In this document: one piece after another, positions 1,304-46,374 of the stretch | Layout of the letters: every line of letters starts with the position of its first letter | Position numbering within the stretch: the stretch's first letter is position 1 | IMG/VR virus record: IMGVR_UViG_3300021959_008096 | Coordinates: 1 to 55,698 of that record | DNA from: a virus | Strand: one strand, 5' to 3' | Length of the DNA stretch: 55,698 bases | Position numbers and translations under genes: made by a program | The notes under the pieces: model-generated | What the model was told of the DNA's origin: nothing | Databases searched by the model: none | The model's input: the letters and a program-made list of their open reading frames with translations, nothing else

Positions 1304-1320
1304 AAAGGAGAAAAAAACAC

Positions 1321-15491: not shown

Positions 15492-16207
15492 GAAGGAACT
15501 CCGGTAATCTGTAACGTATATCTGTCACTATGACCTACATTACCTGTTCCGTGTGGTGTAAGATTGTGCCATTGAATACAGTCTCCAGATTTCCAGTTTG
15601 CCCATATAGTATTTCCAAAATGCCAAAACTGTCCGTATTCCCAATCATTACATGCTATTCCGAATCGTTTATGATTAGTTTTATGATTTAAGTTATCAAT
15701 GTGTGTAGGAACTAAATGTCCGGGAGGCTGGACCATGAATCTTACTTTAGCTTCTTGTATTTTTAAATCGTCAACTATTTCAGCGAATGTAGGGAAATCT
15801 TTCAAGTCTAAGTTTTTAGTTGTTCTTGTACTTTGAATATATAACGTATCACTTATAAATGCATCTTGGTGTCTATTTTTATCTAGTTCAATATCAATAT
15901 ATTCTAATGCTTTTTCTGTATCTTTAGATAAATCTAAACTGTAGTTTTTTATAAATGTGTATGTATTTGTATTTTCTTTAATGCTACGCTTTATATAATC
16001 AAAATGTATTTCAAAATCTTCGTCCTGTTTTGTTTTATCTACTGTAGGGTTAACATTAATATTAAAAACTTCGCGAAGTATTAAACAATCTGTATATGTG
16101 TATTCTGAAAAGACTTCATCTAACTGCTTGTTTATAATCTTGTTATAGTTATTATACCATTTTTGATTATCAAAAAAACTTAGTTCATATTTGCTTAATA
16201 AATCCAT
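15488..16207 (-). CDS. AspH-like 2OG/Fe(II) oxygenase
   Basis: The protein has 239 residues. The N-terminal ~130 residues are polar and unrecognised. The C-terminal domain carries VQPPGHLVPTHIDNL with H169 and D171, then LTPHGTGNVGHSDRYTLQITG with distal H219 and R229. This core is paralogous to the gene at 31035, which has LQPPGNTIPIHRD and KPKYTLQVSG in the same order. AspH-like enzymes hydroxylate peptide side chains or free amino acids. GAGAAAG precedes the ATG. The gene follows the radical SAM gene 16218 by ten bases and is probably cotranscribed with it. Confidence 0.75.
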   Translation of the reverse strand: MDLLSKYELSFFDNQKWYNNYNKIINKQLDEVFSEYTYTDCLILREVFNINVNPTVDKTKQDEDFEIHFDYIKRSIKENTNTYTFIKNYSLDLSKDTEKALEYIDIELDKNRHQDAFISDTLYIQSTRTTKNLDLKDFPTFAEIVDDLKIQEAKVRFMVQPPGHLVPTHIDNLNHKTNHKRFGIACNDWEYGQFWHFGNTIWANWKSGDCIQWHNLTPHGTGNVGHSDRYTLQITGVPS

Positions 16208-16217
16208 TACTTTCTCT

Positions 16218-17333: not shown

Positions 17334-17338
17334 AATAT

Positions 17339-17367
17339 ATTGTACTACAACTTTATTCTTTTGTCAA
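17339..17367 (-). promoter_or_regulatory. Sigma70-type promoter with -10 five bases before the ATG
   Basis: On the minus strand TTGACA (17362-17367), a 17-base spacer and TACAAT (17339-17344) are followed by ATATT and the ATG at 17333. The promoter overlaps the 3' end of the upstream SGNH gene. With usual start-site spacing the mRNA begins at or next to the ATG, and no Shine-Dalgarno sequence is present. Confidence 0.75.
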
Positions 17368-18043
17368 GTTTCATTTTTAAGAATCGAGCTTGCTTTAATA
17401 ACCCACCCGACGACAAATGACCTCCATCATCGATGCAGTGTGATTGATATGCGGGTTTGCCTTTAAATATTCTATTTTGCACGTCAAACTCCGCAACCCC
17501 TTTATAAAAATCATCAGGAATCTGAGAAAATATTAAACCATTAACTTTTGACATTAGCTGTTTTAAATAGCTTACTTGTGCTCTAAGATTTGTTTCATAC
17601 AAAGGAGTGTTGTTTATAATAAAATGCTTCCAGTATTCTTTAAAATGGCCATCTCTAAGAGTACTAGGATTACTAGTTAGTAAATCAGCTGTCCCTGTTT
17701 GATAATAGTTAGGAAACTTTTTTATTATGCAATGTGGCTCTGGCTTAGGAATAATTGACACCCGAGGTGATTTTGTCATTTGAAAAAAGACAAACTTAGG
17801 TTTTATACCAGAGTTCAGAACCCATTCAAGTTGTTGAATAGAGTATAGTAAACAAGATCCGCCTTGAGCAAAGTTTATTACATTACAATCTACCATATTT
17901 GATAAATGTAATGGCCAACACGGTATATTTTCAGTGGCACACAAAAACGGTCCCGATGTGAAACTACAACCAAAAGTTAGTATAGAATCATTTAAAAAAT
18001 CTATATCATAATCATAATCAATATTTTTTCCTACTAAACCCAT
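17345..18043 (-). CDS. SGNH/GDSL hydrolase-like protein
   Basis: The protein has 232 residues. SILTFGCSFTSG holds the putative nucleophile Ser27 in the block I position, NFAQGGS resembles block II, and CIDDGGHLSSGG near the C-terminus gives the Asp-x-x-His dyad (D205 or D206 with H209). SGNH enzymes are esterases and deacetylases, often acting on O-acetyl groups of sugars or polysaccharides. It is the last gene of the operon from 29539 and abuts the fusion gene upstream. There is no signal peptide, so it should act in the cytoplasm. A second SGNH-like gene sits at 27058 in the same operon. The substrate is unknown. Confidence 0.7.
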   Translation of the reverse strand: MGLVGKNIDYDYDIDFLNDSILTFGCSFTSGPFLCATENIPCWPLHLSNMVDCNVINFAQGGSCLLYSIQQLEWVLNSGIKPKFVFFQMTKSPRVSIIPKPEPHCIIKKFPNYYQTGTADLLTSNPSTLRDGHFKEYWKHFIINNTPLYETNLRAQVSYLKQLMSKVNGLIFSQIPDDFYKGVAEFDVQNRIFKGKPAYQSHCIDDGGHLSSGGLLKQARFLKMKLDKRIKL

Positions 18044-19950
18044 TAATCTTCCCCATGAACTATCATGTGATATCTTACTTGATCACTATTATTAAATACA
18101 CAATGATAATCACCTATGCGTATGTTATAACTTATATTATCTTTCCAAGGAACTTTGCCAGCGTAAGCAAAGTTCTTTGTCCAAAAGTGCATTTCACACC
18201 CTTTTGGATTATTAATACTTATATTAGTTGCCCAAACATCAGATTTTTTATTGTCACAATGAACACCAATAAATCCTCCAGGATCTAGTTTCATTATTCT
18301 AACACGAAAATACTTTTTCTTTATTTTTCTTTCTTTAAAATACCTAACAATAGAAGGAACATTTTCGATAGCTTCATCTGTCCATTTATAAGGTGTTTCA
18401 GCATCATTAGCATACCCATATTGATCATAGCTTAAAGTTTTATTGTAACCTATTCCGTGTAATACAAAACTACTCCAACCTTTATGGCTTTCGCTATCCC
18501 TATGAGGTGTGAACAGATTACGTTCTTCTAAGTTTTTTATTTCTTCTAGAAATACTTCAACAGGAAATCTCCAAGGATTTTCACTAAAATAGTTATATCC
18601 GTCTTTTGGTATATTTTGTAAACTATCAATATGGCCCCGCGGTCCTGATCCAAACCAATCTGTCGAATAGTTTGATTTTAATATTTCTGTTAAAAGATTA
18701 CATATTTGATTATCAATATCGTTTAGTTGTTTATACTCAGGCAAATAGGAAAAAACATTAGAAAACCAAACATAAGGATTTTTACTGTTTGTTAGTTCTT
18801 TTTTAATAGTTTTGTTTAAGTAAATAATATTCTCATTATAATACGAAAACTGTATTTTAGATAAATCAACTTCTTTTATTTTTTGGAGAATGAGATTATG
18901 TTCATCTGTTATAACACTAATTTTACTTTTTTTAACTTCGTCAGAAAAATCTTCAACTAAGTCTTTCCAACTGTTATAATCTTTACAATTTTTTATAATA
19001 TGTTTATAGAAGTTTACTGATTCATTATTAATATCTACAAAAATATATTTTTTTAAGGTTTTTCGATTTTCGTATATTAGTTCTAAGGGCAACTGTCCAC
19101 TTGCAACTGAAACTATTAAATCTTTTCCTGTTGGTAAAGTATCTATGTGCTCTGTATTACAAATGTATACTTGTCTCTTACTCATAAGAGAAAAGTTTTC
19201 AAAAAAGTCTAGTTGTCCAGCATGACAACTATCTTTATTACCTCTTAACTTTTCTTGGAAACTGTTTTCACTATCTTCTAAATGATAAGAGTAAAACTTT
19301 TGATTTCTTATTTCTTTTGGAATATTCCTTATAACACACTGTTCGTTAACTGCAAACTGTATTAAGTCATGTAATACACAAAAATTAAAATCTTTTTTAA
19401 CTATAGTTCTTTTTCTTTTTTTACCTTTTTTAATCCAAAGAGGAGTATAATCGTCATGTATATCTTCAGAACTTCTTGCACAAACAGGAAATCTGTTTGA
19501 TTGGTATTTGAAAGATTCTTTTACTTTAAATCTTCGATAAGCATTCATGCAAAAATGGCGTCCTAAAATAAAAAACTGTTCGTGCAAGCCATATAAGTTT
19601 TGAAGATCTATTATGTCTTTATTTTTCCTACCAATATCTACAATATGTCCAGCAACATCTATTTTAACAGATTTGCAATACTTAACAATTTCTCTAGCAA
19701 TCTCTGGTGCACTTTTTACTATTGTGCCACTTGCAAATACTACAACATAATCTAAGTTTAACTTTACAACGTCTGATATCATATCATTTATATTAGTGCT
19801 TTCAAGTAACTCAGATCGTGTATTAGTTGTTTTATAAATTTCGCTAGTAATATGAGAAGCTGCTAAGTGAGTAACTCTAAACATGTCATCACTTAAACTA
19901 TTTAGGTTTTTTAAACTTTTTGTGTTCCAGACAGCAACACCTAGTTTCAT
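18043..19950 (-). CDS. Multidomain protein: unknown N-terminal region fused to C-terminal AspH-like 2OG oxygenase
   Basis: The protein has 635 residues. The last ~130 residues form a 2OG/Fe(II) oxygenase: GGFIGVHCDNKK gives H564 and D566, and YHCVFNNSDQVRYHMIVHG gives H616 and R626. Residues ~1-150 include alternating strands (LDYVVVFASG, KIDVAGHIVDIG) that resemble a small Rossmann or glycosyltransferase-like unit. Residues ~290-330 (KDLIVSVASGQLPLELI, KKYIFVDINNESV) resemble a SAM-methyltransferase or similar nucleotide-binding motif. I do not recognise the rest. GGAGAATCAAC precedes the ATG, and the start overlaps the radical SAM gene 19947. Its lysine and asparagine content is high even for this window. 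One chain probably performs two or more steps. Confidence 0.7.
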   Translation of the reverse strand: MKLGVAVWNTKSLKNLNSLSDDMFRVTHLAASHITSEIYKTTNTRSELLESTNINDMISDVVKLNLDYVVVFASGTIVKSAPEIAREIVKYCKSVKIDVAGHIVDIGRKNKDIIDLQNLYGLHEQFFILGRHFCMNAYRRFKVKESFKYQSNRFPVCARSSEDIHDDYTPLWIKKGKKRKRTIVKKDFNFCVLHDLIQFAVNEQCVIRNIPKEIRNQKFYSYHLEDSENSFQEKLRGNKDSCHAGQLDFFENFSLMSKRQVYICNTEHIDTLPTGKDLIVSVASGQLPLELIYENRKTLKKYIFVDINNESVNFYKHIIKNCKDYNSWKDLVEDFSDEVKKSKISVITDEHNLILQKIKEVDLSKIQFSYYNENIIYLNKTIKKELTNSKNPYVWFSNVFSYLPEYKQLNDIDNQICNLLTEILKSNYSTDWFGSGPRGHIDSLQNIPKDGYNYFSENPWRFPVEVFLEEIKNLEERNLFTPHRDSESHKGWSSFVLHGIGYNKTLSYDQYGYANDAETPYKWTDEAIENVPSIVRYFKERKIKKKYFRVRIMKLDPGGFIGVHCDNKKSDVWATNISINNPKGCEMHFWTKNFAYAGKVPWKDNISYNIRIGDYHCVFNNSDQVRYHMIVHGED

Positions 19951-21116
19951 GTTGATTCTCCTTTTATAGTATCTTCAAACTCTGGAATAATATTTAATAT
20001 TGATTGAGATCTACTTTTATCTAGTTCAGTAGTGTAATGCACAAAATCTTTTAACTTACTAGACCAATCTTCAGCAAACATGTAATCTATTATTCCTTGC
20101 ACTTTAGGAATTTCTAAATATGAGTTTAGTTTTTCCTTTGCTTGTTTTTTTAATCTATCAGGCAAACATCTAATATTTAAATATTCAGGATGATTTAAAA
20201 TATTAAAATAAATCCTATGGTTATATGGTTTAGCCCATTCTATTAACTCATGCAATCTTAATATATTATACATCTGAACTGTACAGTGTATTTCTATATT
20301 TGCATTATCTAAACTTCTAATGATTTCAAAGTTTTTCTCTATCGTTTTCCAATCACTTGGATATCGTATATATCTATCTAACTCGCCGATGGCATCTATA
20401 CTACAGTTTAGTTGGATAGATTTAAACTTTTTCCATTTGTCTAATAAGTGTCTAGGAATATTAGTAAGATTTGTATTGTATTTTAACTTTATATTTTTTG
20501 CAGAATCGTTATCTATAAAATAGTCTAGAAGTTTATGTTGTTCTTTAATAATAGTAGGCTCGCCGCCTGTTAAATAGATTTCTTCAACAGTATCAGCAAT
20601 GCTAAAAAGATTTTCCCATGTCTTTGGATGTTCTGGCCATTCCATATTCGACAACCATTTTACTTCTTCGTTGTTTAACTTTTCTTCAACTAGGTGCCAT
20701 TCTTTAACCCATTGATTACTCGAATAAGGATTGCACATACGACATTTTAGATTACACAAGTTACCTAAACGTAAGTCCACATATTTAATGTCAAAAGGTG
20801 CATCTACTGTATACTTAATATCCTCTTTCCATTTTTCATTCCATGCTTGCCTAGAACTTTTAATACCTACATCTTCCTCGCGAAAACACCGTGTACACAT
20901 TTCAGGACGCTCGCCGTTAAGCATTTGTGTTCTTATTTTTTTATATGTTTCACTGTTCCATGCTTCTACTAAGTCATCTCTTTGTAGTTTATAAGGTTTG
21001 CCATCTGATTTTGCAATAAAGTTTTTACCAGGAGTGCTATTACAACAAACACGAAGAGTTCCTCCAGCATTTGTAGCAAGATGCATCCAGGGTAATATAC
21101 AAAATGTGTCAGCCAT
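19947..21116 (-). CDS. Radical SAM protein with N-terminal twitch/SPASM-like cluster domain
   Basis: The protein has 389 residues. The N-terminus has FCILPWMHL with C6, then RVCC (C24, C25) and CTRC (C74, C77), an arrangement expected to bind an auxiliary iron-sulfur cluster. The radical SAM core starts with GNLCNLKCRMCNP (C121, C125, C128) and has TGGEPTI. The same N-terminal Cys pattern recurs in five other proteins here, so this is one of a paralogous set. SPASM/twitch radical SAM enzymes commonly act on peptides, and some act on sugars. AAAGGA precedes the ATG. The gene is followed with a four-base overlap by the 2OG fusion gene, which may act on the same substrate. Confidence 0.9.
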   Translation of the reverse strand: MADTFCILPWMHLATNAGGTLRVCCNSTPGKNFIAKSDGKPYKLQRDDLVEAWNSETYKKIRTQMLNGERPEMCTRCFREEDVGIKSSRQAWNEKWKEDIKYTVDAPFDIKYVDLRLGNLCNLKCRMCNPYSSNQWVKEWHLVEEKLNNEEVKWLSNMEWPEHPKTWENLFSIADTVEEIYLTGGEPTIIKEQHKLLDYFIDNDSAKNIKLKYNTNLTNIPRHLLDKWKKFKSIQLNCSIDAIGELDRYIRYPSDWKTIEKNFEIIRSLDNANIEIHCTVQMYNILRLHELIEWAKPYNHRIYFNILNHPEYLNIRCLPDRLKKQAKEKLNSYLEIPKVQGIIDYMFAEDWSSKLKDFVHYTTELDKSRSQSILNIIPEFEDTIKGEST

Positions 21117-22337
21117 TTATAGTCCTTTAAGTTCAGGAAAGGTTTTTTTATAATCAGTGTTACGGATATTATCAAGTTTAGATAAAGTTTCAAAACACAA
21201 ATCTAAAGATTCTTTGTTTTCATAATCCATATTTGATTCTAAATAGTTTATCAAATGTAAAAGTTTTTGTTTATAAACACTTGAACTATACATTTTTACT
21301 AACTCTTTTTTATTCTTAATAGGAAGTATTTTTACTTCATACATTTCGGGTACTCTGAGTATTCTAAAACTAACTTTAACTTTTTGTTCAGTTGCCCAGT
21401 CAAGCATATCTATAACATTATAAGCATTTAGTATTTGCCAAGTATAAGAAATAGCTACACGTATATTTTCTATTTGTTTTACTTTTGAAATATTTTTAAC
21501 AATTTTATTCCAGTCGCTAGGAAATCTTATGTAGTTATTTCTGTCTTCTAAACTATCTATACTTGCAGTAAGTTCTACTTTTTTAAAGTTTTTCCAGATA
21601 TTAATGTATTTTTCGTAAAGCATTGTTAGATTTGTATCATATTGTATTGTAATATTATGGCTTAATCCCTTTTCTACAAAATATTCTAAATATTTAAAAT
21701 GTCTTTCAATAAGCATTGGTTCGCCGCCTACAAAATACAATGTATCTATATTAGCCGAATAAGATTCTAAATCTTTCCAAAACCCTTCATCCTCATACCA
21801 CTTGTATGAGTTTGTAGTATCTATATATTTTTTACCTTGCTTTTTAAGTTTAATCTCAACGCCTTCATCAAAATATGACATCCGGTTATTTAACTGAACA
21901 TAATCAGAATACCAAAAGTTACTACTAGACGGATGACACATAGTACATTTTAGATTGCAAACATTTCCAAATCTTAAATCAAAAAAAGTAGGTTTAAACT
22001 TTGATGTTCCGTCTTCTTCAGTATAGGACATAGCTGTTTTTATATCAAGTAAAGGATTTTGTATATCGTTAAGTATTTTAGTCCGTCTACTTACTTTAGC
22101 TTCTTCTTCATTTTTCCAACACAAAGAGCATGCATCAGGTTTTTTATTTGAAAGCATTTCTTTTCTTATTTTTTTCATATGCGGAGAGTTGTAAATACTT
22201 TCTAAACTATCTGTGCCAAAGCGGTAGTTAGATCCGTCTTCTTTTTGTAGCGATTTTGCTAAACAGCATGCTCTTGCAACGCCATTTGTTTTTGCAGACA
22301 TATGCATCCAAGGTAAAGGGCAATAAGTATTAGACAT
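21117..22337 (-). CDS. Radical SAM protein with N-terminal twitch/SPASM-like cluster domain
   Basis: The protein has 406 residues and is a paralogue of its neighbours. YCPLPWMHM (C6), ACC (C24, C25) and CSLC (C70, C73) form the N-terminal auxiliary cluster pattern. GNVCNLKCTMCHP (C127, C131, C134) is the SAM cluster motif and VGGEPML the GGEP motif. A charged insertion follows the core motif. AGAGGTAGATA precedes the ATG, and the start overlaps the end of the 22330 gene by eight bases. Only the order of clusters, not the reaction, can be predicted. Confidence 0.9.
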   Translation of the reverse strand: MSNTYCPLPWMHMSAKTNGVARACCLAKSLQKEDGSNYRFGTDSLESIYNSPHMKKIRKEMLSNKKPDACSLCWKNEEEAKVSRRTKILNDIQNPLLDIKTAMSYTEEDGTSKFKPTFFDLRFGNVCNLKCTMCHPSSSNFWYSDYVQLNNRMSYFDEGVEIKLKKQGKKYIDTTNSYKWYEDEGFWKDLESYSANIDTLYFVGGEPMLIERHFKYLEYFVEKGLSHNITIQYDTNLTMLYEKYINIWKNFKKVELTASIDSLEDRNNYIRFPSDWNKIVKNISKVKQIENIRVAISYTWQILNAYNVIDMLDWATEQKVKVSFRILRVPEMYEVKILPIKNKKELVKMYSSSVYKQKLLHLINYLESNMDYENKESLDLCFETLSKLDNIRNTDYKKTFPELKGL

Positions 22338-23616
22338 TATCTACCTCTTTTGCTAACTCCGGAAGTAACTCTCTCCAAGTTTTTTTAACATTTTGTACCT
22401 GATCTAGTTTATCACTATATTCTATAAAATAAGGAATTTGGTCGCTCATATCACCGCCATTTAACATGTTTATAGCATCTTGCATGTGTTGCATTGCATT
22501 ACGCTTTCTATTATGAGTCCAGTTTTTATGGGTTTTAGTAGGAATAGATTCTAAGTATTTTTCTAAATCTTTTACTATATTTTTTCTAAGATTAGAAGGT
22601 ATTACTCTGCTATCTAAGAACATAGGATAGTTTACACGATGTGTGTGTATTTCGATATTAAGTTCTTCAGTAAACTCGTCAAATATTTCAGGTATATGAA
22701 AACTATTGTAAATCTGTAACGTACATGCTGCTCCTAAAAATGTAATCTTAGGATGATTTCCAATCTTTATAATATTTTTTTTAACTTCAGAATAATCACC
22801 AAGTTGTCTAATATAATCGTATACATCGTATGTGCCGTCGATACTAATCATAACATTTACAGACTGAAAATGATTCCAAAGTTCTTCAATACTATCTTTT
22901 TTATAGTTTAGTTTAGTTAAGTTTGTGCTGTATTTTATACCTATATTCTCTCCGTAAGGTTTTAAAATATGAAGAATCTTATAGTGTATAGGATCTATTA
23001 AAGGTTCGCCGCCTGCAAATTCGATTCTTTCTATAAAAGGTGCTAATAGTTCAAACTCTTCCCAGAATCCCTTATTATCATCAAATGCACTTATATAAGG
23101 TTTAGAAGTTAGATCATATTCTTTAACTTTTCTGTATGTACTACCATTTGCATTTTCCATCAAATGTTCAATACTTTTCCAATCCTTACTCCAACTAGTA
23201 GAATCTAAAGGATGACACATTCTACATTTTAAATTACAAAAGTTACTTAACTTTGCTTCAATAACAGGAATTTTAAATGGCATATTGTATTCGTCATCTA
23301 AACTTTCTAGATTATTAATAAATCTTTCTGTTCGGGTTTTATTATATCTTTGTCGCATACTTCGAACACCAATTTCTTCGTGGCGCCAGCATGCATGACA
23401 TTCCTGAGGTTTTTCTCCTTTTAATAACTTTTCCCTAACTTCTTTATATTTTTCACTATTCCATAACTCTTTAATCGAAATATCTTTAATATTTCCAATA
23501 GGCCAACTTCTACAACATAACTTTAAATCGCCATCTGTTTTAGTTGCCATGTGTGTAAATGGTAGAAGACAAAATGTTTTGCTATTTTTTGCTTGTTCTA
23601 CATGTTTTTTAGTCAT
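22330..23616 (-). CDS. Radical SAM protein with N-terminal twitch/SPASM-like cluster domain
   Basis: The protein has 428 residues. FCLLPFTHM (C16), KLCC (C34, C35) and CHAC (C73, C76) give the auxiliary cluster, and SNFCNLKCRMCHP (C127, C131, C134) the SAM cluster; AGGEPLI is the GGEP motif. Compared with the paralogues it has an N-terminal extension of about ten residues and a longer segment between the core motif and GGEP. AAGGAAG precedes the ATG at 23616 by eight bases. It overlaps the upstream radical SAM gene by four bases and the downstream one by eight, so all are translated as a unit. Confidence 0.9.
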   Translation of the reverse strand: MTKKHVEQAKNSKTFCLLPFTHMATKTDGDLKLCCRSWPIGNIKDISIKELWNSEKYKEVREKLLKGEKPQECHACWRHEEIGVRSMRQRYNKTRTERFINNLESLDDEYNMPFKIPVIEAKLSNFCNLKCRMCHPLDSTSWSKDWKSIEHLMENANGSTYRKVKEYDLTSKPYISAFDDNKGFWEEFELLAPFIERIEFAGGEPLIDPIHYKILHILKPYGENIGIKYSTNLTKLNYKKDSIEELWNHFQSVNVMISIDGTYDVYDYIRQLGDYSEVKKNIIKIGNHPKITFLGAACTLQIYNSFHIPEIFDEFTEELNIEIHTHRVNYPMFLDSRVIPSNLRKNIVKDLEKYLESIPTKTHKNWTHNRKRNAMQHMQDAINMLNGGDMSDQIPYFIEYSDKLDQVQNVKKTWRELLPELAKEVDNV

Positions 23617-24584
23617 AACCGACGCTTCCTTGTATTGATATCAGGAAGACATGTACATCTATCAACCGTACAAACTATCGGCTGAGTCAAAAAACTAATA
23701 TCCTCGTCGTATATTGTTTTGTCTGTTAATCCTTTAGTTTTTACAGGACATTTACCCCCTAATGCTAAAGATCCATTATTATTAATTTTTAAAATATCAA
23801 CACCAGCCCAACATTCGAAACCTTTAAAATAGTTTAATCCGTTTGACATAATAGTTCCAGGAGCAGTTTTTTTAGTTTCGTTATTAATACTCGAAATCCT
23901 ATAATATCTATCTTTAGGATTAGCACTTCCTGCTCTAACAGGTTTTTGAAATATAGTTAACTGCTCAGGAGTATAGTCATAAGGATCTGTATCAAAATCT
24001 TTAAGCAAAACTTTAGCTTCTATATGGAAGTTATTCCGACTTTGTTTCATTATTTCAATATCACTTATGCATTTATCCCATAAGTCAGGTATCATAGGAA
24101 TAGATATATTAGCATGGCAACCATGTTCGATTAATGTATCGCAAACTTCGGTACTATGCTCTGCTTTAGCATTTTCAGCATGATGAGTAACTTTTACCAC
24201 ATCAAAATATGGAGCATTTTTCTTCCAATAGTCTATCTTTCTATATGCATTTGTTATAAACTCAACTTGTGTATTAACATTTAATATTTCAGCTTCTTCT
24301 TTTATTGCTGCACATATAGTACTAAAGTCTTTATATAAAGATGTTTCTCCTCCTAAAAAGTTAAAAATAAAAACATCTTTACCTAGAGATTCAGTATAAA
24401 ACCTCATTGCTTTTTTAAGAAACTTGGTTAAATCATCTGCTGGGATCCAAGGCATTGTTCCGTCATGTGAACCAGCAGGACAATAGCTACAAGCCCAAAC
24501 ACATAGATTTCCTAAATTTATATCAAATAAAAGATGGTTTTTTAATCGATTGTCTAAATAATCAATCTGATTTATTTTTTCCAT
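23613..24584 (-). CDS. Radical SAM protein (short, different subgroup)
   Basis: The protein has 323 residues and lacks the N-terminal twitch region of its neighbours. The cluster motif GNLCVWACSYCPAG (C28, C32, C35) is close to the N-terminus, and FLGGETSL replaces the usual GGEP. The C-terminus has Cys residues in FECWAG, GGKCPV, IVCTVDRCTC, likely ligands for one auxiliary cluster. It resembles the 16218 protein more than the twitch paralogues in layout. GAGGACATT precedes the start, and the ATG overlaps the stop of the 24584 gene (TAATG). Its role within the string of radical SAM genes is unknown. Confidence 0.85.
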   Translation of the reverse strand: MEKINQIDYLDNRLKNHLLFDINLGNLCVWACSYCPAGSHDGTMPWIPADDLTKFLKKAMRFYTESLGKDVFIFNFLGGETSLYKDFSTICAAIKEEAEILNVNTQVEFITNAYRKIDYWKKNAPYFDVVKVTHHAENAKAEHSTEVCDTLIEHGCHANISIPMIPDLWDKCISDIEIMKQSRNNFHIEAKVLLKDFDTDPYDYTPEQLTIFQKPVRAGSANPKDRYYRISSINNETKKTAPGTIMSNGLNYFKGFECWAGVDILKINNNGSLALGGKCPVKTKGLTDKTIYDEDISFLTQPIVCTVDRCTCLPDINTRKRRL

Positions 24585-25987
24585 TACATAATGTCCTCAA
24601 ATATCGGAAATACTTCTAAAAATTTATTTTCCCAGTTTCTTTGTTTATTTACAAGGGTTAAATATTCTTTAGTTTCTGGAAGCCTTGCGCTCCAGTCTTC
24701 AGCATTCATAAAGTTAATAATACCTTTAAATCTTTTTAATCCATAGTTAGCAGTTAGGAATGTTTCTTTGTCGATTCCTGCTTCCTTTACTCCGGTAAAC
24801 TGATCCCAATTTTCTTCTATCCAAGGATAAAACTCTTTTTCATATTTTTCTGTAATCTTTTGCTTCACATTTTGTGGTAAAACTTTCAAGTTAAGTTGCG
24901 GAGGCCAATATGCAAAATGCATGTTAATGCCTCCTGCTCCTAAAGGCCATTTATTCCATTTTTTAAATCCTGCTTGTGTTTTCCATTTTACAAACTCAGG
25001 AATGTAAGCAACATTAAGTGCCATAATAGTAGTTGCTGAAGTTAGTTCGACGTTGTCACCTGTGGCGTCTAGCTTCCACATTTGCTCAACTTGATGATCC
25101 CATTTACTAGGATAACGAATATAATCATTTTGTTCGCCAAACGCATCTATACTATAATGAAACCGTACTCTCTTAAACTCTGCCCAAAGGTCAAACAAAT
25201 CATCTCTCCATTCGACTGCATTTGAGTTATAACGTAGTTCAATGTTCTTTGCGTATCCTTGACGAATACATTCTTCTAGTAAATCGTAATGTTCATCAAT
25301 GATTAAACTTTCTCCACCAGCAAAATATAGCTGATACATATGTGGAACTTGTTCCATAAGTTCCTTCCAAAATCTTGGATTATTTTTGTGCCAGTTATAA
25401 CTTGCGCCGTGATTACGTCCTTTATTTTCCCATGCACTTGTATTTTTAAGTTTTTCATTTTGCATCTGTGGATAGATGTCTTGCCATTCTTTAATCCATC
25501 CTGAACTATCGTGCGGGCTACACATAACACATGCTAGTTGGCACTTTGTACCCATTCTAAGGTCTATGTAGCGTATCTTAGGAGGAATACTGCCATCTTC
25601 CTTAGTTTCATCAACTAGTTGCTGTAAGTCATATCTATGACCCCAGTATTCTGTTTCCCAGTTTCTTTTACTAAGGTGTCCTGCTTCTTCTTCTTTATAG
25701 CACTTTAAGCAACTTGCAGGTTTTTCGCCGCGCAACATCATTTTACGCACATTACGCATATATGAACTATTCCATGCATCTTCTAATGTTGTATGGTTAA
25801 AGTTAGCGGGGATACCGTCATCATTTTTTACAATGCCGACTTCGCCGCCACCTATTTTTTTGTTGCTATCTGGATCTTGTACTGAACTTGCATTTGACGT
25901 ACAGCAGGTACGCATTTTACCGTCTGGTCTACTACTTAAATGCATCCAAGGTAGAGCACAAAATGTTGGGGATATATTCTTAGTCAT
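24584..25987 (-). CDS. Radical SAM protein with N-terminal twitch/SPASM-like cluster domain
   Basis: From the ATG at 25987 the protein has 467 residues, the longest of the paralogous set. FCALPWMHL (C10), RTCC (C28, C29) and CLKC (C93, C96) form the auxiliary cluster, GTKCQLACVMCSP (C149, C153, C156) the SAM cluster, and AGGESLI stands for GGEP. An insertion of about 25 residues follows the CC pair. An in-frame start 48 bases upstream, inside the previous gene, is rejected because 25987 aligns with the starts of the paralogues and lies seven bases after the upstream stop. No convincing Shine-Dalgarno sequence is seen here, so translation may depend on coupling to the preceding gene. Confidence 0.88.
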   Translation of the reverse strand: MTKNISPTFCALPWMHLSSRPDGKMRTCCTSNASSVQDPDSNKKIGGGEVGIVKNDDGIPANFNHTTLEDAWNSSYMRNVRKMMLRGEKPASCLKCYKEEEAGHLSKRNWETEYWGHRYDLQQLVDETKEDGSIPPKIRYIDLRMGTKCQLACVMCSPHDSSGWIKEWQDIYPQMQNEKLKNTSAWENKGRNHGASYNWHKNNPRFWKELMEQVPHMYQLYFAGGESLIIDEHYDLLEECIRQGYAKNIELRYNSNAVEWRDDLFDLWAEFKRVRFHYSIDAFGEQNDYIRYPSKWDHQVEQMWKLDATGDNVELTSATTIMALNVAYIPEFVKWKTQAGFKKWNKWPLGAGGINMHFAYWPPQLNLKVLPQNVKQKITEKYEKEFYPWIEENWDQFTGVKEAGIDKETFLTANYGLKRFKGIINFMNAEDWSARLPETKEYLTLVNKQRNWENKFLEVFPIFEDIM

Positions 25988-25994
25988 ACTGTAC

Positions 25995-27071
25995 TTATTT
26001 AAACTGCTCTGCAAAGGGGTCAAACTCGGCACCACACTTCATAGCACATACTTTTAGTTTACCTGAACTACAACTATTTATATTCCAACTTTTTTCTATT
26101 CGATTAAAAATTCCAGTACCGAATACATTTTTTAATCCTTTACGTGCATCAAGTTTTTCTTTACCACCCGATAAATCAATGAATCTCCATATTTGTTCTT
26201 GGTAAGGATTTTCATTCCACCATTTATACATACGTCCAGCAGTCCAGCAACAAGGCAATGCTAGTCCTTCTGCTGTGATGAACAAACTGTTTTCTTTTTT
26301 AACTTTACAAATGATAGGAGCTGCATCATAATATGCGTCCATACTGCCGTATTTCTTGAGTATTGTTTCTTGCTTGGTAAGAGCTTTATTCTGGTATTTT
26401 TCTTCTGGCTTTTTAAGCTCTGCTGTATCTTTGCCTTTACGGTCTTTGGCTTGATGCTTTTCTTTTTTGTTTGATTTTGTGTCAATAAATCTTCCAGTCT
26501 TCTTTTTCATAAACTTTTCAACACCCCACTCGTTGGCAAGAGCTTCTGCTTCTTCAACTTGGTGTTGATTATGTTCAAATATTAAAAAGTCCCAACGGGC
26601 TCTACCGCCGGCATTGATAAAAGTTTTCATGTTGCGTTCTACATTGTCCCAGACAACACCCTGCCTGTATATATGATTAGTGTCCCTAAGACCGTCCACA
26701 CTGAAAATAACAGCACCCATCCTGCCAAAGACTTTGGCCAGTTCACTCCACCACGCTTCATCTTTTGCTCCTCCATTTGTATTCATGCTTAACCACATAT
26801 TAGGGTTATGTTCTCTAAAGTAACGGAATATTTCTAATGTATCTCGTGCAACAATAGGATCTCCTAAGTTACCGCACATATACATTGTATTAAGTTGAGC
26901 AATAAAATCAGGTTCAAAAATACGTTTGCAATCTTCAAGTGTAAGCTCATCAAGATTAATATGCGGATTAACGCCTTCGCCGTTCATATTTCGATCACAC
27001 ATAGGACAACTGGCTTGACAGTTTTGTGTTACTTCTAAATGAATTGTTTTTATATTTTTATATTCGTACAT
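25995..27071 (-). CDS. Radical SAM protein with C-terminal SPASM domain
   Basis: The protein has 358 residues. TQNCQASCPMCDRN (C18, C22, C25) is at the N-terminus. The C-terminal third has the classic SPASM order: ICKVKK, LPCCW, NSCSSG, KVCAMKC. A strongly basic, Lys-rich insertion of about 40 residues lies between (around residues 195-235). In this protein the auxiliary domain is C-terminal, the opposite order from the twitch paralogues. GC content looks somewhat higher than the neighbours. The start overlaps the end of the SGNH-like gene 27058 by 14 bases. SPASM proteins often mature peptides, which fits a peptide-modifying role but does not prove it. Confidence 0.88.
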   Translation of the reverse strand: MYEYKNIKTIHLEVTQNCQASCPMCDRNMNGEGVNPHINLDELTLEDCKRIFEPDFIAQLNTMYMCGNLGDPIVARDTLEIFRYFREHNPNMWLSMNTNGGAKDEAWWSELAKVFGRMGAVIFSVDGLRDTNHIYRQGVVWDNVERNMKTFINAGGRARWDFLIFEHNQHQVEEAEALANEWGVEKFMKKKTGRFIDTKSNKKEKHQAKDRKGKDTAELKKPEEKYQNKALTKQETILKKYGSMDAYYDAAPIICKVKKENSLFITAEGLALPCCWTAGRMYKWWNENPYQEQIWRFIDLSGGKEKLDARKGLKNVFGTGIFNRIEKSWNINSCSSGKLKVCAMKCGAEFDPFAEQFK

Positions 27072-27792
27072 TTTGCTTTTTTCTCAGTGCGTTGCTTATT
27101 TTATTTCCTAATATTTTATTTCCGTGTATATTTAAGTGGGCGCCGTGAGCATCCGATGTTCTTTCTTTTATTGTAGACTTTTCGTACATATTTGTAAGTT
27201 CAAGATCTATAAAATAATCGCTAGTTCCTACCTTGTCTCCCATTTGAAATGTATATGTAGGTATTTGATATTCTTGCATAAGATTAGAAACAAAAAGTTT
27301 AGAAAGATAAGTTGCAGTTTTATATGTATTTGATTCTCCAGATATAGCTACATAAAAATCTTTACTAATGTGTGTTTTAGGAAACTGACTTTTTATTATA
27401 TAATCCATATTTTGAAATTGATTACTAAAGAAAGAGTTTACACTTACGTTAAAATCTATTAACTCAGCATTAAAGTCTTTATATTTTTCTTTGGTGCATT
27501 CAGTTTGATTAGAAATATGAAATCTTGGTTCAATAGTTTCTTGTATTATACACATGTCATAGTATTTTAAAGTTTGAGATTCTAATATCGATAATATAAC
27601 TTCAGCATACCAAAACCAACCTACTCCTCCTCCAGCGTATATGCGTTTGTTCATATCTTTAATATAGTCACAATGTGCCCACCATCCTCCAAGATTAAAG
27701 GCAGTGTATTCTTCACCTTTATCTCGTATAGTATTACTTAAACTATAACTTCCTCTAGAGTGACTGCACCCGAGTATTAAAACGTTTTTCAA
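27058..27792 (-). CDS. SGNH-hydrolase-like protein
   Basis: The protein has 244 residues. NVLILGCSHSRGS puts Ser10 in the SGNH block I position, FNLGGWW resembles block II, and TSDAHGAHLNIHGN near the C-terminus supplies the Asp-x-x-x-x-His pair (D214 and H219). The start codon is TTG at 27792, supported by GAGGAA at the end of the preceding gene. It is distantly similar to the 17345 protein, giving two SGNH-type enzymes in one operon. There is no signal peptide. An O-acyl esterase or acyltransferase role on a sugar is plausible, but the catalytic Asp/His spacing is looser than in the best-known members. Confidence 0.6.
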   Translation of the reverse strand: MKNVLILGCSHSRGSYSLSNTIRDKGEEYTAFNLGGWWAHCDYIKDMNKRIYAGGGVGWFWYAEVILSILESQTLKYYDMCIIQETIEPRFHISNQTECTKEKYKDFNAELIDFNVSVNSFFSNQFQNMDYIIKSQFPKTHISKDFYVAISGESNTYKTATYLSKLFVSNLMQEYQIPTYTFQMGDKVGTSDYFIDLELTNMYEKSTIKERTSDAHGAHLNIHGNKILGNKISNALRKKQNVRI

Positions 27793-27796
27793 CTAT

Positions 27797-28024
27797 CTAT
27801 TCCTCGTCAAAGACTAGTTTTATATCTTTAGCAGGTCCAATACGACTTGGCAAATCTCCATACTGCTCTACATACCATTCTATAACAGCCTTATACCAGT
27901 TTTGACTGTTATGGTGTGCTAGTTTATTAAACTGATAAATGTTATTATTTGTTGCTTCCATTGTACTCAGTGCTCTGGCACTTTCTTTTTGAAGCTCTCT
28001 AAGAGTTAGATCGTCGATGTTCAT
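27797..28024 (-). CDS. Small hypothetical protein (75 residues)
   Basis: I do not recognise this protein. It is mostly helical and charged, begins MNIDDLTLRELQKESARAL, has an aromatic middle (NWYKAVIEWYVEQYG) and no Cys. AGGAAG lies three bases before the ATG, and ATGA couples it to the methyltransferase-like gene upstream; the SGNH gene follows after four bases. Its place inside an enzyme operon suggests an adaptor, carrier-like partner or possible substrate. It lacks a double-glycine cleavage site and the serine attachment motif of acyl carrier proteins, so these roles are speculative. Confidence 0.6.
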   Translation of the reverse strand: MNIDDLTLRELQKESARALSTMEATNNNIYQFNKLAHHNSQNWYKAVIEWYVEQYGDLPSRIGPAKDIKLVFDEE

Positions 28025-28872
28025 GGTCTTCCTATTAACATAAATCTTTTATATCCGTATAGTTCTTTTTCTCCGGAATAATATAGTCTACTCATTGGAA
28101 ACTTTTTTAACATTTCATCAAGGCTATGTACACAGTTTATATGTTCTTTGATAGTAAAAAGATTGTTTGACTGAATAATATATAATGGATCACTTTCTGT
28201 CGTCCTAGTTACAAACTTGTTATACCAATCTTCTTTAAAATGCTCTGCACTAGTATTAATAATCAAACTTGGAAATCTTTTTTCTACGATAACTTTTCCG
28301 GAAGTATAGTTTTTTAAAGAAAACTCCAATCCATTTTGATGAAGAGTAGTTAGATCATTGATGTCCATTTCGGAACTTTTTACAGTGAACCCTTCAATCT
28401 TGTCTATGTTAAAAATCTTATCACTAACCCAACAAGCAGTTGGATCAATATCAAAGTTTCTTATACAACTATATGATATACCAGATTTATCAAGATACTT
28501 TACTGTTTGACCAAACCAGCCGGCAAGTATAAAAATAGTATGAAAATCTTTTTGGTCAATTTTAGCTAACTCTTGCGAAAGCCATATTTTACTTAATACT
28601 TGTCCTCTACTGAATGCATCTTGTAATGCTGCTGGATCTTGACCTGATCTATAATATTTGTGGAATATATCGAATATAGGATTAGGAGCAAACTTACGAA
28701 GCACACTAATAAACTCAACCATGCCTGCTTGATTAGTTGTATCAATAATATTGTTTTCGGAATACATGGACTTCTCTAAAAAATCGATAAACTTTTTAGA
28801 TTCTAAGTCGTTGTCAAACTCTAAAAATGAAGACAGTCCTCGAACCCAGTTTAGTGTATTTTCTTTATTCAT
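28021..28872 (-). CDS. Methyltransferase-like protein (tentative)
   Basis: The protein has 283 residues. The segment FHTIFILAGWFGQ (motif I-like at 116-121) is followed about 20 residues later by RNFDIDP, whose Asp141 is where many class I SAM methyltransferases hold the ribose. FPSLIINTSAEHF could be the motif IV strand. The N-terminal ~110 residues are helical and unassigned. GGAGAAG precedes the ATG at 28872. It lies second in the operon from 29539, just after a glycosyltransferase-like gene with an eight-base overlap. The fold assignment rests on a few short motifs and could be wrong. Confidence 0.5.
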   Translation of the reverse strand: MNKENTLNWVRGLSSFLEFDNDLESKKFIDFLEKSMYSENNIIDTTNQAGMVEFISVLRKFAPNPIFDIFHKYYRSGQDPAALQDAFSRGQVLSKIWLSQELAKIDQKDFHTIFILAGWFGQTVKYLDKSGISYSCIRNFDIDPTACWVSDKIFNIDKIEGFTVKSSEMDINDLTTLHQNGLEFSLKNYTSGKVIVEKRFPSLIINTSAEHFKEDWYNKFVTRTTESDPLYIIQSNNLFTIKEHINCVHSLDEMLKKFPMSRLYYSGEKELYGYKRFMLIGRP

Positions 28873-29539
28873 TAAACTTCTCCATTAGCCAGTCAAAATC
28901 GTTTATTTCTCTTAGCTTGTCTATATTTTCTTTATTTCTTGCACCATATGCTGCGCCTGCTTTGGCTCCTTTAATAGCATAATCGCCGAAAGGTCTATCT
29001 TCGCCAACTGTACACCAAGTATGTAACCGTTCTTGTGTTTCATTATCTTTTTGTCTGTCTATGATTTTGCTAGACAGTTTACAACATTCTCTAAACGCAC
29101 TTTTCCAAGTTTCAAAAGGTGCAGTATTAAATGCTGTAATATTACTTACATCGTGCATTGCACAAAACTTGTCGCTAATGCTAGTTGTCATATCAGGCTT
29201 GCTAGTATCCATGTCAATAGTAAGTTGTGTAGGAAATAGTTTTACACCTCCGTAACCATATTCCATATCGTTAATCGGATTACGACTACGCCATACATGA
29301 ACAGTATCTAAGTTCCATTTGTGTGGCTTAAAACTAAAATCAAAATCATCAACTATATGTGCATCACCATCTACAATCCAGAACATTTTAGTCCAGCACT
29401 GTTTAGCACCTGCAATGTGTGCTTGGTGTATACCTTTTACACCGTGTATACGTTTTGCTGTAGGGAAACGTTTAATAAGACGGTTCCAGTTCTCGTCAGC
29501 ATTAGGTTCTTGGTATGAAATAAAGACAATATCAAACAT
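28865..29539 (-). CDS. Glycosyltransferase-like protein (DGD motif), paralogue of 33982 gene
   Basis: The protein has 224 residues. It begins FDIVFISYQEPNADENW and has FWIVDGDAHIVDDF, with D57-G-D59 as a GT-A-type metal-binding motif. The 33982 protein starts almost the same way (YDIIYLSYDEPNAEENY) and has TIDGDNKI at the same place, which fixes the start codon at 29539 despite the lack of a ribosome site. A sigma70 promoter with perfect hexamers ends five bases before the ATG. The likely role is transfer of a sugar to a glycan or protein in the cytoplasm. Donor and acceptor are unknown. Confidence 0.65.
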   Translation of the reverse strand: MFDIVFISYQEPNADENWNRLIKRFPTAKRIHGVKGIHQAHIAGAKQCWTKMFWIVDGDAHIVDDFDFSFKPHKWNLDTVHVWRSRNPINDMEYGYGGVKLFPTQLTIDMDTSKPDMTTSISDKFCAMHDVSNITAFNTAPFETWKSAFRECCKLSSKIIDRQKDNETQERLHTWCTVGEDRPFGDYAIKGAKAGAAYGARNKENIDKLREINDFDWLMEKFNE

Positions 29540-29544
29540 AACTT

Positions 29545-29573
29545 ATTATACTACTTATTGGTGGTTTTGTCAA
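29545..29573 (-). promoter_or_regulatory. Consensus sigma70 promoter with -10 five bases before the ATG
   Basis: On the minus strand TTGACA (29568-29573), exactly 17 bases, and TATAAT (29545-29550) match the consensus fully. AAGTT and the ATG at 29539 follow directly. Transcription should start at or beside the ATG, giving a leaderless mRNA for the long operon 29539 to 17345. Confidence 0.85.
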
Positions 29574-29601
29574 TAGCAAACATTCATGGTTATATACGCA
29601 C

Positions 29602-29608
29602 ATAAATA
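29602..29608 (+). promoter_or_regulatory. Late-type promoter box (ATAAATA) for the 29616 gene
   Basis: ATAAATA ends seven bases before the ATG at 29616, with no Shine-Dalgarno sequence between them. It lies in the divergent gap that also holds the consensus promoter on the other strand. A TTGTCA at 29567 with TATATA 18 bases later could be an additional weak plus-strand promoter. Confidence 0.5.
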
Positions 29609-29615
29609 TCTAAGC

Positions 29616-31043
29616 ATGAGTAAAGTTATTCAATGGTACGTATCCGATATACCTAATCCCCATATTGACAAACATTTGTCAAACTATTTCCCGTGGAAAA
29701 AACTCCAAACTATGAGTGTGCTACAGACTATACGAGAAATGGATGATAACAAAAGCGAAGACGAGATTGGTAGATATAGTTTTAGATCAGATCCTGAATG
29801 GCATAGTTGGGTAGACTTTTATACACAAACTGAAGTAAGATTTATCAACAAAGATTTTAGAAACTATGATCCTAAAGATATAAACATATTTCCTATTAGA
29901 TTGGTTGCAAACGATGACCAAGTTTTTACTTACAAAAACCTTTGTCCTTTTGGAAACTTGCCCAACGAAACAATAGAATGGTTGCAGAAACATAAAGATT
30001 GTGCTATAGTTTTTCATGATGCTCACGAAGCAAAAGCAGTAAGTAGCAGAGACTTTGTTACAATACCAAGTTTAATAGTAAAACGTAAAGAATTCAAACT
30101 AGAAAACAGATTTGTGTTCTTAGATTCTCATGCAAACACAAAATCAATATACGAAAACTCAGTATATAATATTCCAGATTGGTTAGTATTTCTTTCGTGC
30201 AGTCATTGGATGCAGTTTGTATCTTATACAATGACTAAAAAGCATATAAACGAAATAATAAGATTATCTAAAAGAAAGCCCTTGTTTAAAAAAGGAAGAT
30301 TTTTGTGTTATTCAGGAAGATTTCGTCCTGCTAGATATACTTACCTGTCAAAACTACAAAAAATAGTACAACCTGAACACTTGTGGATGAAAATATCAAA
30401 ACCCACTGATATGGTTGATCCTGAAGTAGAAATAAAAGAAATAATGCAATATCACCAAGCATATCAGCAAAGATTGTTCAAAAGGTCGCACTATCACAGA
30501 ACTGATATCGAAAATATGATAGAGTTATACCATAAACTTCCTATTAATACATTTCCAAAAGAAATACAAGAAGGAAATATCGACTATCATCATTTAAAAT
30601 GGTTTTGGTTGCCAAATCCAACACATTATTCTAGAGCGTTTATAGATATAAGTTGTGAAACATATAACGAAAGAGAAGGCCCATATCATAACGATTTGTT
30701 TATAACAGAAAAAATATGTAAACCTATACTTGCTAGACGTCCGTTTATTACAAGTGCTAATCCCGGGTTATATGACGAGTTACATCGACTAGGATTCAAA
30801 ACTTTCGATCGTTGGTGGAACGAAGATTTTGCAGAAGAAGGTGATGTTAAAATACATATTGAAAAAATCATGCGTGTTATTAGGCGTATAGACAATATGT
30901 CTATACAAGAGTGTGATACTATGTGGGAAGAAATGCAAGATACACTTGACTACAATCAAGAGTTATATCTATATTATGCAAATCGGGCACCTAGATTTTG
31001 GATTACAGAACTTAAAAAAGTAAGAGGCAAAAAACTAATTTAA
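29616..31043 (+). CDS. Glycosyltransferase-like protein with fucosyltransferase/exostosin-type C-terminal half
   Basis: The protein has 475 residues from the ATG at 29616. The C-terminal region has FITEKICKPILARRPFI (about 362-378), then ANPGLYDELHRLGFKTF, a pattern shared by alpha-1,3-fucosyltransferase-like and exostosin-like GT-B enzymes, where the Glu-Lys pair contacts the nucleotide sugar. The N-terminal half is less recognisable and includes IVFHDAHEA. An earlier in-frame ATG at 29586 is rejected in favour of 29616, which follows an ATAAATA box. It is a single-gene plus-strand unit and its stop overlaps by nine bases the stop of the convergent 2OG gene. It likely modifies a surface glycan or a virion glycan. 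Confidence 0.7.
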   Translation: MSKVIQWYVSDIPNPHIDKHLSNYFPWKKLQTMSVLQTIREMDDNKSEDEIGRYSFRSDPEWHSWVDFYTQTEVRFINKDFRNYDPKDINIFPIRLVANDDQVFTYKNLCPFGNLPNETIEWLQKHKDCAIVFHDAHEAKAVSSRDFVTIPSLIVKRKEFKLENRFVFLDSHANTKSIYENSVYNIPDWLVFLSCSHWMQFVSYTMTKKHINEIIRLSKRKPLFKKGRFLCYSGRFRPARYTYLSKLQKIVQPEHLWMKISKPTDMVDPEVEIKEIMQYHQAYQQRLFKRSHYHRTDIENMIELYHKLPINTFPKEIQEGNIDYHHLKWFWLPNPTHYSRAFIDISCETYNEREGPYHNDLFITEKICKPILARRPFITSANPGLYDELHRLGFKTFDRWWNEDFAEEGDVKIHIEKIMRVIRRIDNMSIQECDTMWEEMQDTLDYNQELYLYYANRAPRFWITELKKVRGKKLI

Positions 31044-32841: not shown

Positions 32842-33985
32842 TTGCTTTTTTCCAAATAGGCTTAAGATTTCCTAAACGAACTTTAGGATTTTTGAATATG
32901 TTATCTTGTAAAACTGTTAATAGTTTACTATGCTCTGGATGACTATCCTTCCATATACATTTTTCTTCGTACACTTCTTTAGGCCAAGTGCCCCAGTCGG
33001 TTACAAGACTAAAGTTAATACTTTCTGCATTAGGAAGTTGATTCTCTATTAAACGTATATACCGTCTCATTTCAGTATAGTTATCTGATTGTACAACAAA
33101 GTCATATGCTATTTTAAAGTTAGGATATTCTAACACCTTATTATCTAAATATTTACAATTTTCTATTAGTAGATCCCAATCGCCTCCTAGACGAGTTTTA
33201 TTTTCATATGTTTCTTTTGTTCCAGCATCAAAACTAATAGCACACCTTCTTAGATTTTTATGTATTTTAGATATACGTCTCCAATTTGTAGGAGTAAACA
33301 TTGTACCATTAGTTTGTAAGTTAACTTCTAGGTTAGGAAAAAGGTCCCCATCTATTTTTTGTAACATATCTCTATATATTTTGCTTGCAAAAGGATCGCC
33401 GCTTCCGGTTACATGTATACTAAAATGCCTATCAGTTGGCTCTTTAAATAACATATTAAATATTTTGTCATTTACTTCTTTTCGTCTGTCGTACAATGGA
33501 CCTTCAGTATAAAGAAGTTTATCAACTCTACAACTCGGACAGCGAAGATTGCAACTTTCGTCATTTGAAAAGTTAAACATAGTCGGAAGATCTGCAACTG
33601 TACTTGTTGGAGGATTATCTATAGTATTAAGATTAGGTAGATTATCACCTGCAATAAGAGGACAAAACTCGTGTTGGCAATACTTCCAATCTCCTGTAAA
33701 TATTTGATTTCGTAGTTCTTGAGCTCTTTTGCCGTTCCATATTTCGTCTAATGTTTGTGTTAGCACATTACCTATAGGATAAGGTAACCAACTTGGACAA
33801 CACATCCATGCTTTGCCAAACATATCAAACTCTAACCATGTATAAAGTTTATTACAATACTTTCCGGATAGATCTTTTTTTGATGATTCCATTCCCTTTG
33901 TTTCTTTGATCCATACAGGTCCAAACAAAGGATCTACAGTCCTACCATCAGATAGTTTACTATAGGGTCTTGAACTTTCGCTCAT
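32828..33985 (-). CDS. Radical SAM protein with N-terminal auxiliary-cluster cysteines
   Basis: The protein has 385 residues. C44, the pair C62-C63 (AWMCCPS), and C103/C108 resemble the auxiliary cluster site of the twitch group but with wider final spacing (CxxxxC). The SAM cluster motif is DESCNLRCPSCRV (C145, C149, C152). The usual GGEP is replaced by VTGSGDPFAS. This is therefore a divergent relative of the twitch set. The start overlaps the stop of the 33982 gene by ATGA, and the end overlaps the next radical SAM gene by 14 bases. The substrate is unknown. Confidence 0.88.
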   Translation of the reverse strand: MSESSRPYSKLSDGRTVDPLFGPVWIKETKGMESSKKDLSGKYCNKLYTWLEFDMFGKAWMCCPSWLPYPIGNVLTQTLDEIWNGKRAQELRNQIFTGDWKYCQHEFCPLIAGDNLPNLNTIDNPPTSTVADLPTMFNFSNDESCNLRCPSCRVDKLLYTEGPLYDRRKEVNDKIFNMLFKEPTDRHFSIHVTGSGDPFASKIYRDMLQKIDGDLFPNLEVNLQTNGTMFTPTNWRRISKIHKNLRRCAISFDAGTKETYENKTRLGGDWDLLIENCKYLDNKVLEYPNFKIAYDFVVQSDNYTEMRRYIRLIENQLPNAESINFSLVTDWGTWPKEVYEEKCIWKDSHPEHSKLLTVLQDNIFKNPKVRLGNLKPIWKKANGLR

Positions 33986-34923
33986 CCATTTGCACCATCT
34001 TCTACATCAATGAGCTTATTAGAGTTGCGTGAAGGATTAATATAAACTGTCTTAAAAAACTTGCTCTGTTCAGGATCAAGAGGATCTGTTGCAATAGGAA
34101 TGTCAAGTTCATACTTTAGTGTTTCGCCTAGACCCATTATTTCATAACGTAAACTTTCTTCTGTAATTTTACTGTATTTGGTATCCCATAGATTATTCAA
34201 ATATTTAAAATCACGTACATTTACATAATCCCAATCTGTACACATAGTTTTGTACAGGCCTTCTCTAGCGCCGTATACTGCCCACAAGCCGTTTTCAACG
34301 TCTGCACCTAACATTGTCCAGATATACAATCTATGTAAGTTTTTCCAATGGCTGTTGCGTAGAGCTTCTGCACTTTCAACTTTAATACCTCTATCTAATG
34401 CCATTTTTACACCTTCACGAAAACCTGCTCTCCATGCTTGTTGTGCAGTAGCATTATTATATACATCTGAAAAACAACTATTTTGCTGAATGTAGTTTAC
34501 GTCCCAGCAAAAATCTACTTGTGCTTGTTTGTTATTTGGGTCTGCGTTTTCGTGTGTACGCATTTTAAGCACATATTCTTTGGGCCAGCATTTGATACCG
34601 CCGTTGCCGTACATAAGATTATTGATTACATTCTGTCCGCACCAACTAATAACACTGCTTTCTAAAACTTGAAAATCTTCAATATCAATTTCTTGGTCTA
34701 AAAACCCATCACGGATTTTATTATCACCATCGATTGTGATAAAACGGTCAGTCTCACTTAGTTCTGCACAGGCTTTGTGTGCGGCATCTGATCCTTCTAC
34801 TCCGTGTACACGTTTTGCCCAAGGTACTTTACTACACAAGTCCGCATAGTTTTCTTCTGCATTAGGTTCATCATAAGAAAGATATATGATGTCGTATTCT
34901 ACTGGACGGAATTTTTTAGTCAT
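33982..34923 (-). CDS. Glycosyltransferase-like protein (DGD motif), paralogue of 28865 gene
   Basis: The protein has 313 residues. Its first 70 residues match the 28865 protein (YDIIYLSYDEPNAEENY, KRVHGVEG, FITIDGDNKI with D65 and D67). It is about 90 residues longer than that paralogue, with extra sequence in the C-terminal half. GAGGTAACTA precedes the ATG at 34923. A GT-A-type sugar transferase is the likely function, from the DxD-like motif and neighbouring glycosyltransferases. It is followed by two radical SAM genes and a 2OG oxygenase in the same operon. Confidence 0.65.
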   Translation of the reverse strand: MTKKFRPVEYDIIYLSYDEPNAEENYADLCSKVPWAKRVHGVEGSDAAHKACAELSETDRFITIDGDNKIRDGFLDQEIDIEDFQVLESSVISWCGQNVINNLMYGNGGIKCWPKEYVLKMRTHENADPNNKQAQVDFCWDVNYIQQNSCFSDVYNNATAQQAWRAGFREGVKMALDRGIKVESAEALRNSHWKNLHRLYIWTMLGADVENGLWAVYGAREGLYKTMCTDWDYVNVRDFKYLNNLWDTKYSKITEESLRYEIMGLGETLKYELDIPIATDPLDPEQSKFFKTVYINPSRNSNKLIDVEDGANG

Positions 34924-37518: not shown

Positions 37519-37547
37519 AGTATATATGGTTTTGTAAGATTTGTCAA
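37519..37547 (-). promoter_or_regulatory. Sigma70-type promoter for the 37498 operon
   Basis: On the minus strand TTGACA (37542-37547), a 17-base spacer and TATACT (37519-37524) precede the ATG at 37498 by 20 bases, leaving room for the ribosome site TAGGAG. It separates the accessory operon from the virion genes upstream and should be read by host RNA polymerase. Confidence 0.8.
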
Positions 37548-46351: not shown

Positions 46352-46367
46352 CACTTTTCCTATACTG

Positions 46368-46374
46368 TATTTAT
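46368..46374 (-). promoter_or_regulatory. Late-type promoter box (ATAAATA) for the 46351 operon
   Basis: On the minus strand the box overlaps the stop codon of the giant structural gene. It precedes the ATG at 46351 by 16 bases, which contain TAGGAAAAG as ribosome site. Confidence 0.6.

Follow-up and report, generated by a model that had tools for sequence, protein, structure and literature searches.

The window, meaning the whole 55.7-kb stretch of uncultured phage DNA from an IMG/VR virus record analysed here, carries a perfect sigma70-type promoter sequence almost touching the start codon of a gene that heads a long co-directional gene run. This arrangement raises the question of whether the gene is expressed from a leaderless mRNA and whether the spacing reflects selection or coincidence.

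Promoter geometry

The initial annotation described TTGACA, 17 bases, TATAAT, five bases and ATG at positions 29540-29573, and every element and spacing could be located in the sequence. The site lies on the minus strand, which had not been named previously. The -35 element TTGACA (6/6, 29573-29568) and the -10 element TATAAT (6/6, 29550-29545) flank the 17-nt spacer AAACCACCAATAAGTAG (29567-29551), so that all 12 hexamer positions match the sigma70 consensus at a separation within the usual 16-18 nt. The five-base discriminator AAGTT (29544-29540) follows, and the ATG of the first cistron (29539-29537) is located directly 3' of it. This is the sole 12/12 match with a 17-nt spacer in the window; a first-order Markov model predicts 0.035 of them per window on average, with at least one found in 7 of 200 shuffles. 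Matches with up to three mismatches occur at chance frequency (174 versus 175 in shuffles), and only near-perfect sites in meaningful positions therefore carry weight. A promoter with at most one mismatch is found 3-8 nt before 2 of about 44 gene starts (29539 and 17333), in both cases at 5 nt; the expected number of starts with such a promoter at 5-7 nt is 0.006. The same two sites (12/12 and 11/12, respectively) represent the best sigma70 matches in the region 15400-30000. A T4-type late promoter, defined as a TATAAATA octamer lacking a -35 element, was considered for the 29540-29573 site and rejected, with TATAATAA and a perfect -35 element being present instead. RNA folding of the first 40 nt did not reveal any special structure.

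The first cistron and the downstream gene run

The first cistron (28865-29539, minus strand) encodes a 224-residue protein with a confidently predicted fold (pLDDT 91.5) whose weak PDB matches are mostly glycosyltransferases. Judged by two stop codons just upstream (TAA TAA GTT in frame before the ATG), by the position of the next in-frame ATG, GTG or TTG at codon 51 and by the start codon of its orthologues, no start other than ATG 29539 is usable. The orthologues, which are stand-alone genes of other phages, share this codon, with M1 at least 90% conserved and followed by [YF]DI.FIS. The paralogue at 33982-34923, previously offered as proof of the start codon, did not serve this purpose as it starts 8 residues earlier (MTKKFRPVEYDIIYLSYDEP versus MFDIVFISYQEP). 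Its longer N-terminus makes it the weaker evidence, and the orthologues take its place. The reported lack of a Shine-Dalgarno sequence was borne out for the transcript of this promoter: only AAGTT separates the -10 element and the ATG, and five bases cannot accommodate one.

The first cistron is followed by 11 packed ORFs, several of them encoding radical SAM proteins, and the resulting 12-gene co-directional run of 12.2 kb (17345-29539, minus strand; junctions of -41 to +4 nt) ends where the promoter of the gene starting at 17333 begins. The proposed 12-kb operon is thus well founded as a series of 12 tightly packed ORFs with gaps of at most 4 nt, and as a single transcription unit it is putative. 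Terminator-like sites over 15400-30000 are near chance (7 versus 5.3). A dense radical SAM gene array, some members of which contain SPASM or B12-binding domains, extends over 7014-27071 of the window.

Conservation of the spacing upstream of a radical-SAM gene

The second putative leaderless promoter, TTGACA-17-TACAAT (17339-17367, minus strand), ends 5 nt before ATG 17333 and precedes a radical-SAM gene (16218-17333, minus strand; Pfam PF04055, E 4e-14) that was used for a comparative test. Eighty relatives of this gene were retrieved (83-91% identity), with largely unrelated upstream DNA, yielding 59 non-redundant upstream regions including that of the window. Allowing up to two mismatches, 45 of the 59 regions carry a near-consensus promoter upstream of the conserved ATG, with a gap of 5 nt in 28 regions, 6 nt in 16 and 7 nt in one; none of the 59 has its best site at any other distance from 0 to 29 nt. 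Permuted hexamers gave 0.31 instead of the 45 observed. Of the 44 cases with 5- or 6-nt spacing, 41 have a pyrimidine immediately before the ATG, compared with 47% of all genes in the group (nominal binomial P 8e-11, which is optimistic given shared ancestry). An AAAGRTG stretch just before TATAAT is common among the sister promoters of L505-L584, and 28 of the 44 carry an extended -10 TG. The possibility that AAGGTG before TATAAT acts as a Shine-Dalgarno sequence for read-through transcripts was rejected, as the stretch lies some 12 nt away from the ATG and an extended -10 is the simpler reading. One relative (L551) contains, about 60 nt upstream of the radical-SAM start, a leaderless promoter and a short copy of the first codons, followed by the full gene, an arrangement resembling a start-region duplication. 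No matches to the first cistron or the sister radical-SAM gene were found in an isolated-phage collection.

Since dozens of related contigs from uncultured giant phages have retained this spacing, the distance between promoter and ATG very likely constitutes a real, selected mode of starting expression and not a coincidence.

Distribution among homologues, related contigs and other phages

Comparison of the same intergenic gap in related phages, suggested in the initial annotation, gave a divided result. In 75 of 80 loci encoding relatives of the first cistron, no own promoter was found upstream, a result explained by the gene lying within another operon or being fused to further domains. The promoter is present only in the longer tandem-domain homologues L009-L011, L015 and L016, representing two non-redundant lineages, all of which start 5 nt after TATAAT.

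A survey of about 3 Mb of related contigs considered sites with at most one mismatch that are followed by an ORF, with only exact duplicates removed. The promoter-to-ATG distance is 5 nt in 39 cases, 6 in 12 and 7 in 2, most of these representing the sister gene; two further cases lie at 0-4 nt, none at 8-11 nt and 59 at 12-57 nt. This bimodality was also apparent before sister-gene relatives were added, when seven genes were found at exactly 5 nt. The second mode, at about 12-30 nt, is usually accompanied by a Shine-Dalgarno sequence: leadered sites usually carry an AGGAG-like sequence, whereas true sigma70 sites at 5 nt do not. A leadered example in the window is TTGACA-17-TATACT (37519-37547, minus strand), located 20 nt before ATG 37498 with AGGAG in between. 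Upstream of phage queE, 7 of 26 non-redundant starts have a promoter (up to two mismatches) at 5-6 nt and none at other distances. The recurrence of this geometry before the radical-SAM gene, queE and the longer homologues of the first cistron makes a lone coincidence an unlikely source.

In the wider IMG/VR collection, nine of 91 TTGACA-17-TATAATAA sites are followed by an ORF after 5-7 nt and none after 0-4 or 8-14 nt; at least two of the nine represent the coding false positive LTGEELGAIITDMEMEDPFSV. A second IMG/VR sample, conditioned on a nearby ATG and on ORFs of at least 60 codons, contained starts at 4 (1), 5 (6), 6 (10), 7 (19), 8 (3) and 9 (2) nt; nine of the 19 starts at 7 nt were discounted, the promoter-like string being part of the conserved coding sequence LTGEELGAIITDMEMEDPFSV. 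A leaderless sigma70 class thus probably exists in phages generally, and within these data a distance of 5-6 nt is the one favoured by the lineage of this window.

Late-like octamers at the same distance

In genes lacking a Shine-Dalgarno sequence, T4-late-like octamers with no more than one mismatch to TATAAATA cluster at exactly 5 nt upstream of the ATG (8 of 203 versus a permuted mean of 0.75). The permutation maximum was 4 at 5 nt and 7 when any distance from 0 to 11 was allowed, and one of the eight cases (L004) is actually a sigma70 site at 7 nt. Two octamers of this kind in the window, again without a Shine-Dalgarno sequence, belong to the starts at 13439 (minus strand, TGTAAATA-TAACT-ATG) and 13479 (plus strand, AATAAATA-CAAAC-ATG). 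Near cases are found on the plus strand at 6478 (TATAAATA, 8 nt before the ATG) and at 29600-29616 (CATAAATA, 7 nt before ATG 29616). The latter concerns the plus-strand ORF 29586-31043, whose listed start at 29586 is probably not real; translation from ATG 29616 would give a protein beginning MSKVIQWYV. We tentatively suggest that NATAAATA-5-ATG marks a leaderless late-like class. No relatives of the B12/radical-SAM gene 13479-15491 were found.

It could be speculated that this jumbo-phage lineage has two translation regimes, one for virion genes, whose mRNAs have leaders with Shine-Dalgarno sequences, and one for accessory genes (radical SAM, glycosyltransferase-like, queE), which would be leaderless from sigma70 as well as T4-type late promoters. 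Expression could then be switched between the two by an altered ribosome state in the course of infection, although we consider this scenario doubtful.

Start-site prediction and alternative explanations

Bacterial RNA polymerase favours a start 7 bp downstream of the -10 element and uses positions 6-9 (PMC5730371). The A of ATG 29539, the predicted +1, occupies position 6 and is preceded by T, giving the Y-R step T5-A6. The original placement of +1 at or beside this A is consistent with these rules and with the geometry conserved in relatives, and the sequence alone allows, without proving, a start there. The -10 hexamer occupies -11 to -6 here and in the relatives, matching the distance of about 10-12 bp from the start codon that is expected of leaderless genes, and is combined with a true AUG start and no usable Shine-Dalgarno sequence. 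Counting against a leaderless reading are the location of the A at position 6 and not at the modal position 7, the G at position 8, which likewise follows a pyrimidine, and the absence of the promoter before most homologues of the first cistron. Overall, we assign a probability of roughly 0.8 to a functional sigma70-type promoter with +1 at the A of the AUG that yields a leaderless mRNA for the first cistron of the putative 12-kb operon.

RNA polymerase containing the housekeeping sigma factor would bind TTGACA and TATAAT, open the AT-rich discriminator and start 6 bp downstream of the -10 element at the T/A step. A ribosome, presumably a 70S particle carrying initiator tRNA, would then bind the 5'-AUG itself without the help of a Shine-Dalgarno interaction. 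Overlaps between stop and start codons would probably allow the later cistrons to be reached by translational coupling. We infer the exact +1, the type of polymerase, initiation by 70S ribosomes and co-transcription of the 12 genes, as well as the use of unmodified host polymerase at this promoter.

The polymerase could instead be altered by a phage factor, either a phage sigma or one that appropriates sigma70, which would still result in a leaderless mRNA. The AAAGRTG stretch shared by relatives of the sister promoter points in this direction, and CBB, a distant relative, has sigma factors of its own alongside RpoD-like promoters (PMC5259590). The site at 29540-29573 is, however, a plain 12/12 consensus without this stretch and needs no helper, making such an alteration unlikely. 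Somewhat less likely still is a real promoter at which most transcripts start inside the ATG, at position 7 or 8, leaving the first cistron largely untranslated and the promoter serving mainly the downstream cistrons. E. coli polymerase most often starts at position 7, and the G at position 8, which follows the pyrimidine T, is a possible competitor. Position 7 here is a T, a poor start, and in the sister-gene relatives the ATG stays at 5-6 nt and a pyrimidine precedes its A, the pattern predicted for a +1 at this A.

Translation of the first cistron mainly from a longer upstream transcript, with the promoter being minor or internal, would be compatible with the additional minus-strand genes upstream (31035 and beyond). 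We regard this as very unlikely, given that such a transcript would run 1.5 kb antisense to 29586-31043 and that no Shine-Dalgarno sequence precedes ATG 29539. Chance resemblance in AT-rich DNA is the least probable explanation: the window has a GC content of 33.9% and weaker matches are no commoner than in shuffles, but this perfect match on the correct strand of an intergenic gap, 5 nt from the ATG, is joined by a sister site in the window and by dozens of comparable cases elsewhere.

Lineage, significance and comparison with known leaderless systems

The structural protein encoded at 45752-46414 has relatives in jumbo phages such as Agrobacterium phage Atu_ph07, GAP32 and CBB, with about 42-54% identity among the matches listed. 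A TctA transporter gene is cut by the window edge and followed by an unassigned 341-residue gene with a signal-like N-terminus (region 41-2346, plus strand); a perfect TTGACA-18-TATAAT ends 110 nt before ATG 1321. The TctA gene was followed as a host lead, and no relative was found in genome_contigs. Rfam and tRNA scans found nothing.

Leaderless phage mRNAs as such are already known, most familiarly from isolated examples such as the repressor genes of temperate phages. The new element here is a class of putatively leaderless genes conserved within a lineage of uncultured jumbo phages, with a 5-6 nt spacing between consensus promoter and AUG conserved before one gene in dozens of diverged phages. 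The sister-gene set offers natural comparative material on joint selection of start-site choice and leaderless translation. It also suggests a practical rule for annotating promoters and start codons of metagenomic phages like these, whose gene starts may be misassigned by gene finders that rely on a Shine-Dalgarno sequence.

In the jumbo phages CBB and GAP32, RpoD-like promoters serve one gene set and ATAAATA late promoters the structural genes, as stated in an excerpt of PMC5259590 that does not mention leaderless placement of the CBB promoters. Leaderless mRNAs are numerous in some Alphaproteobacteria, with 171 leaderless genes in S. meliloti (PMC3616915) and 375 in Caulobacter (PMC4117421). 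In bacterial leaderless (TA-led) genes, TANNNT precedes the start codon by about 10-12 bp (PMC3160421); such genes share with the window site a -10 element at -11 to -6 from the A of the ATG, an AUG start and the absence of a leader, whereas the window site has a full TTGACA -35 element and is found in a phage. Established leaderless phage mRNAs include lambda cI as well as PY54 cI and cro (PMC4488713, PMC11514452), in which the promoter is likewise directly upstream of the ATG, the transcript begins at the AUG and there is no Shine-Dalgarno sequence. Their 5' ends are mapped or part of the textbook model, whereas that of the window is a prediction. The lambda and PY54 cases are regulatory genes of temperate phages, while the gene described here heads a long putative accessory operon in a jumbo-phage relative.
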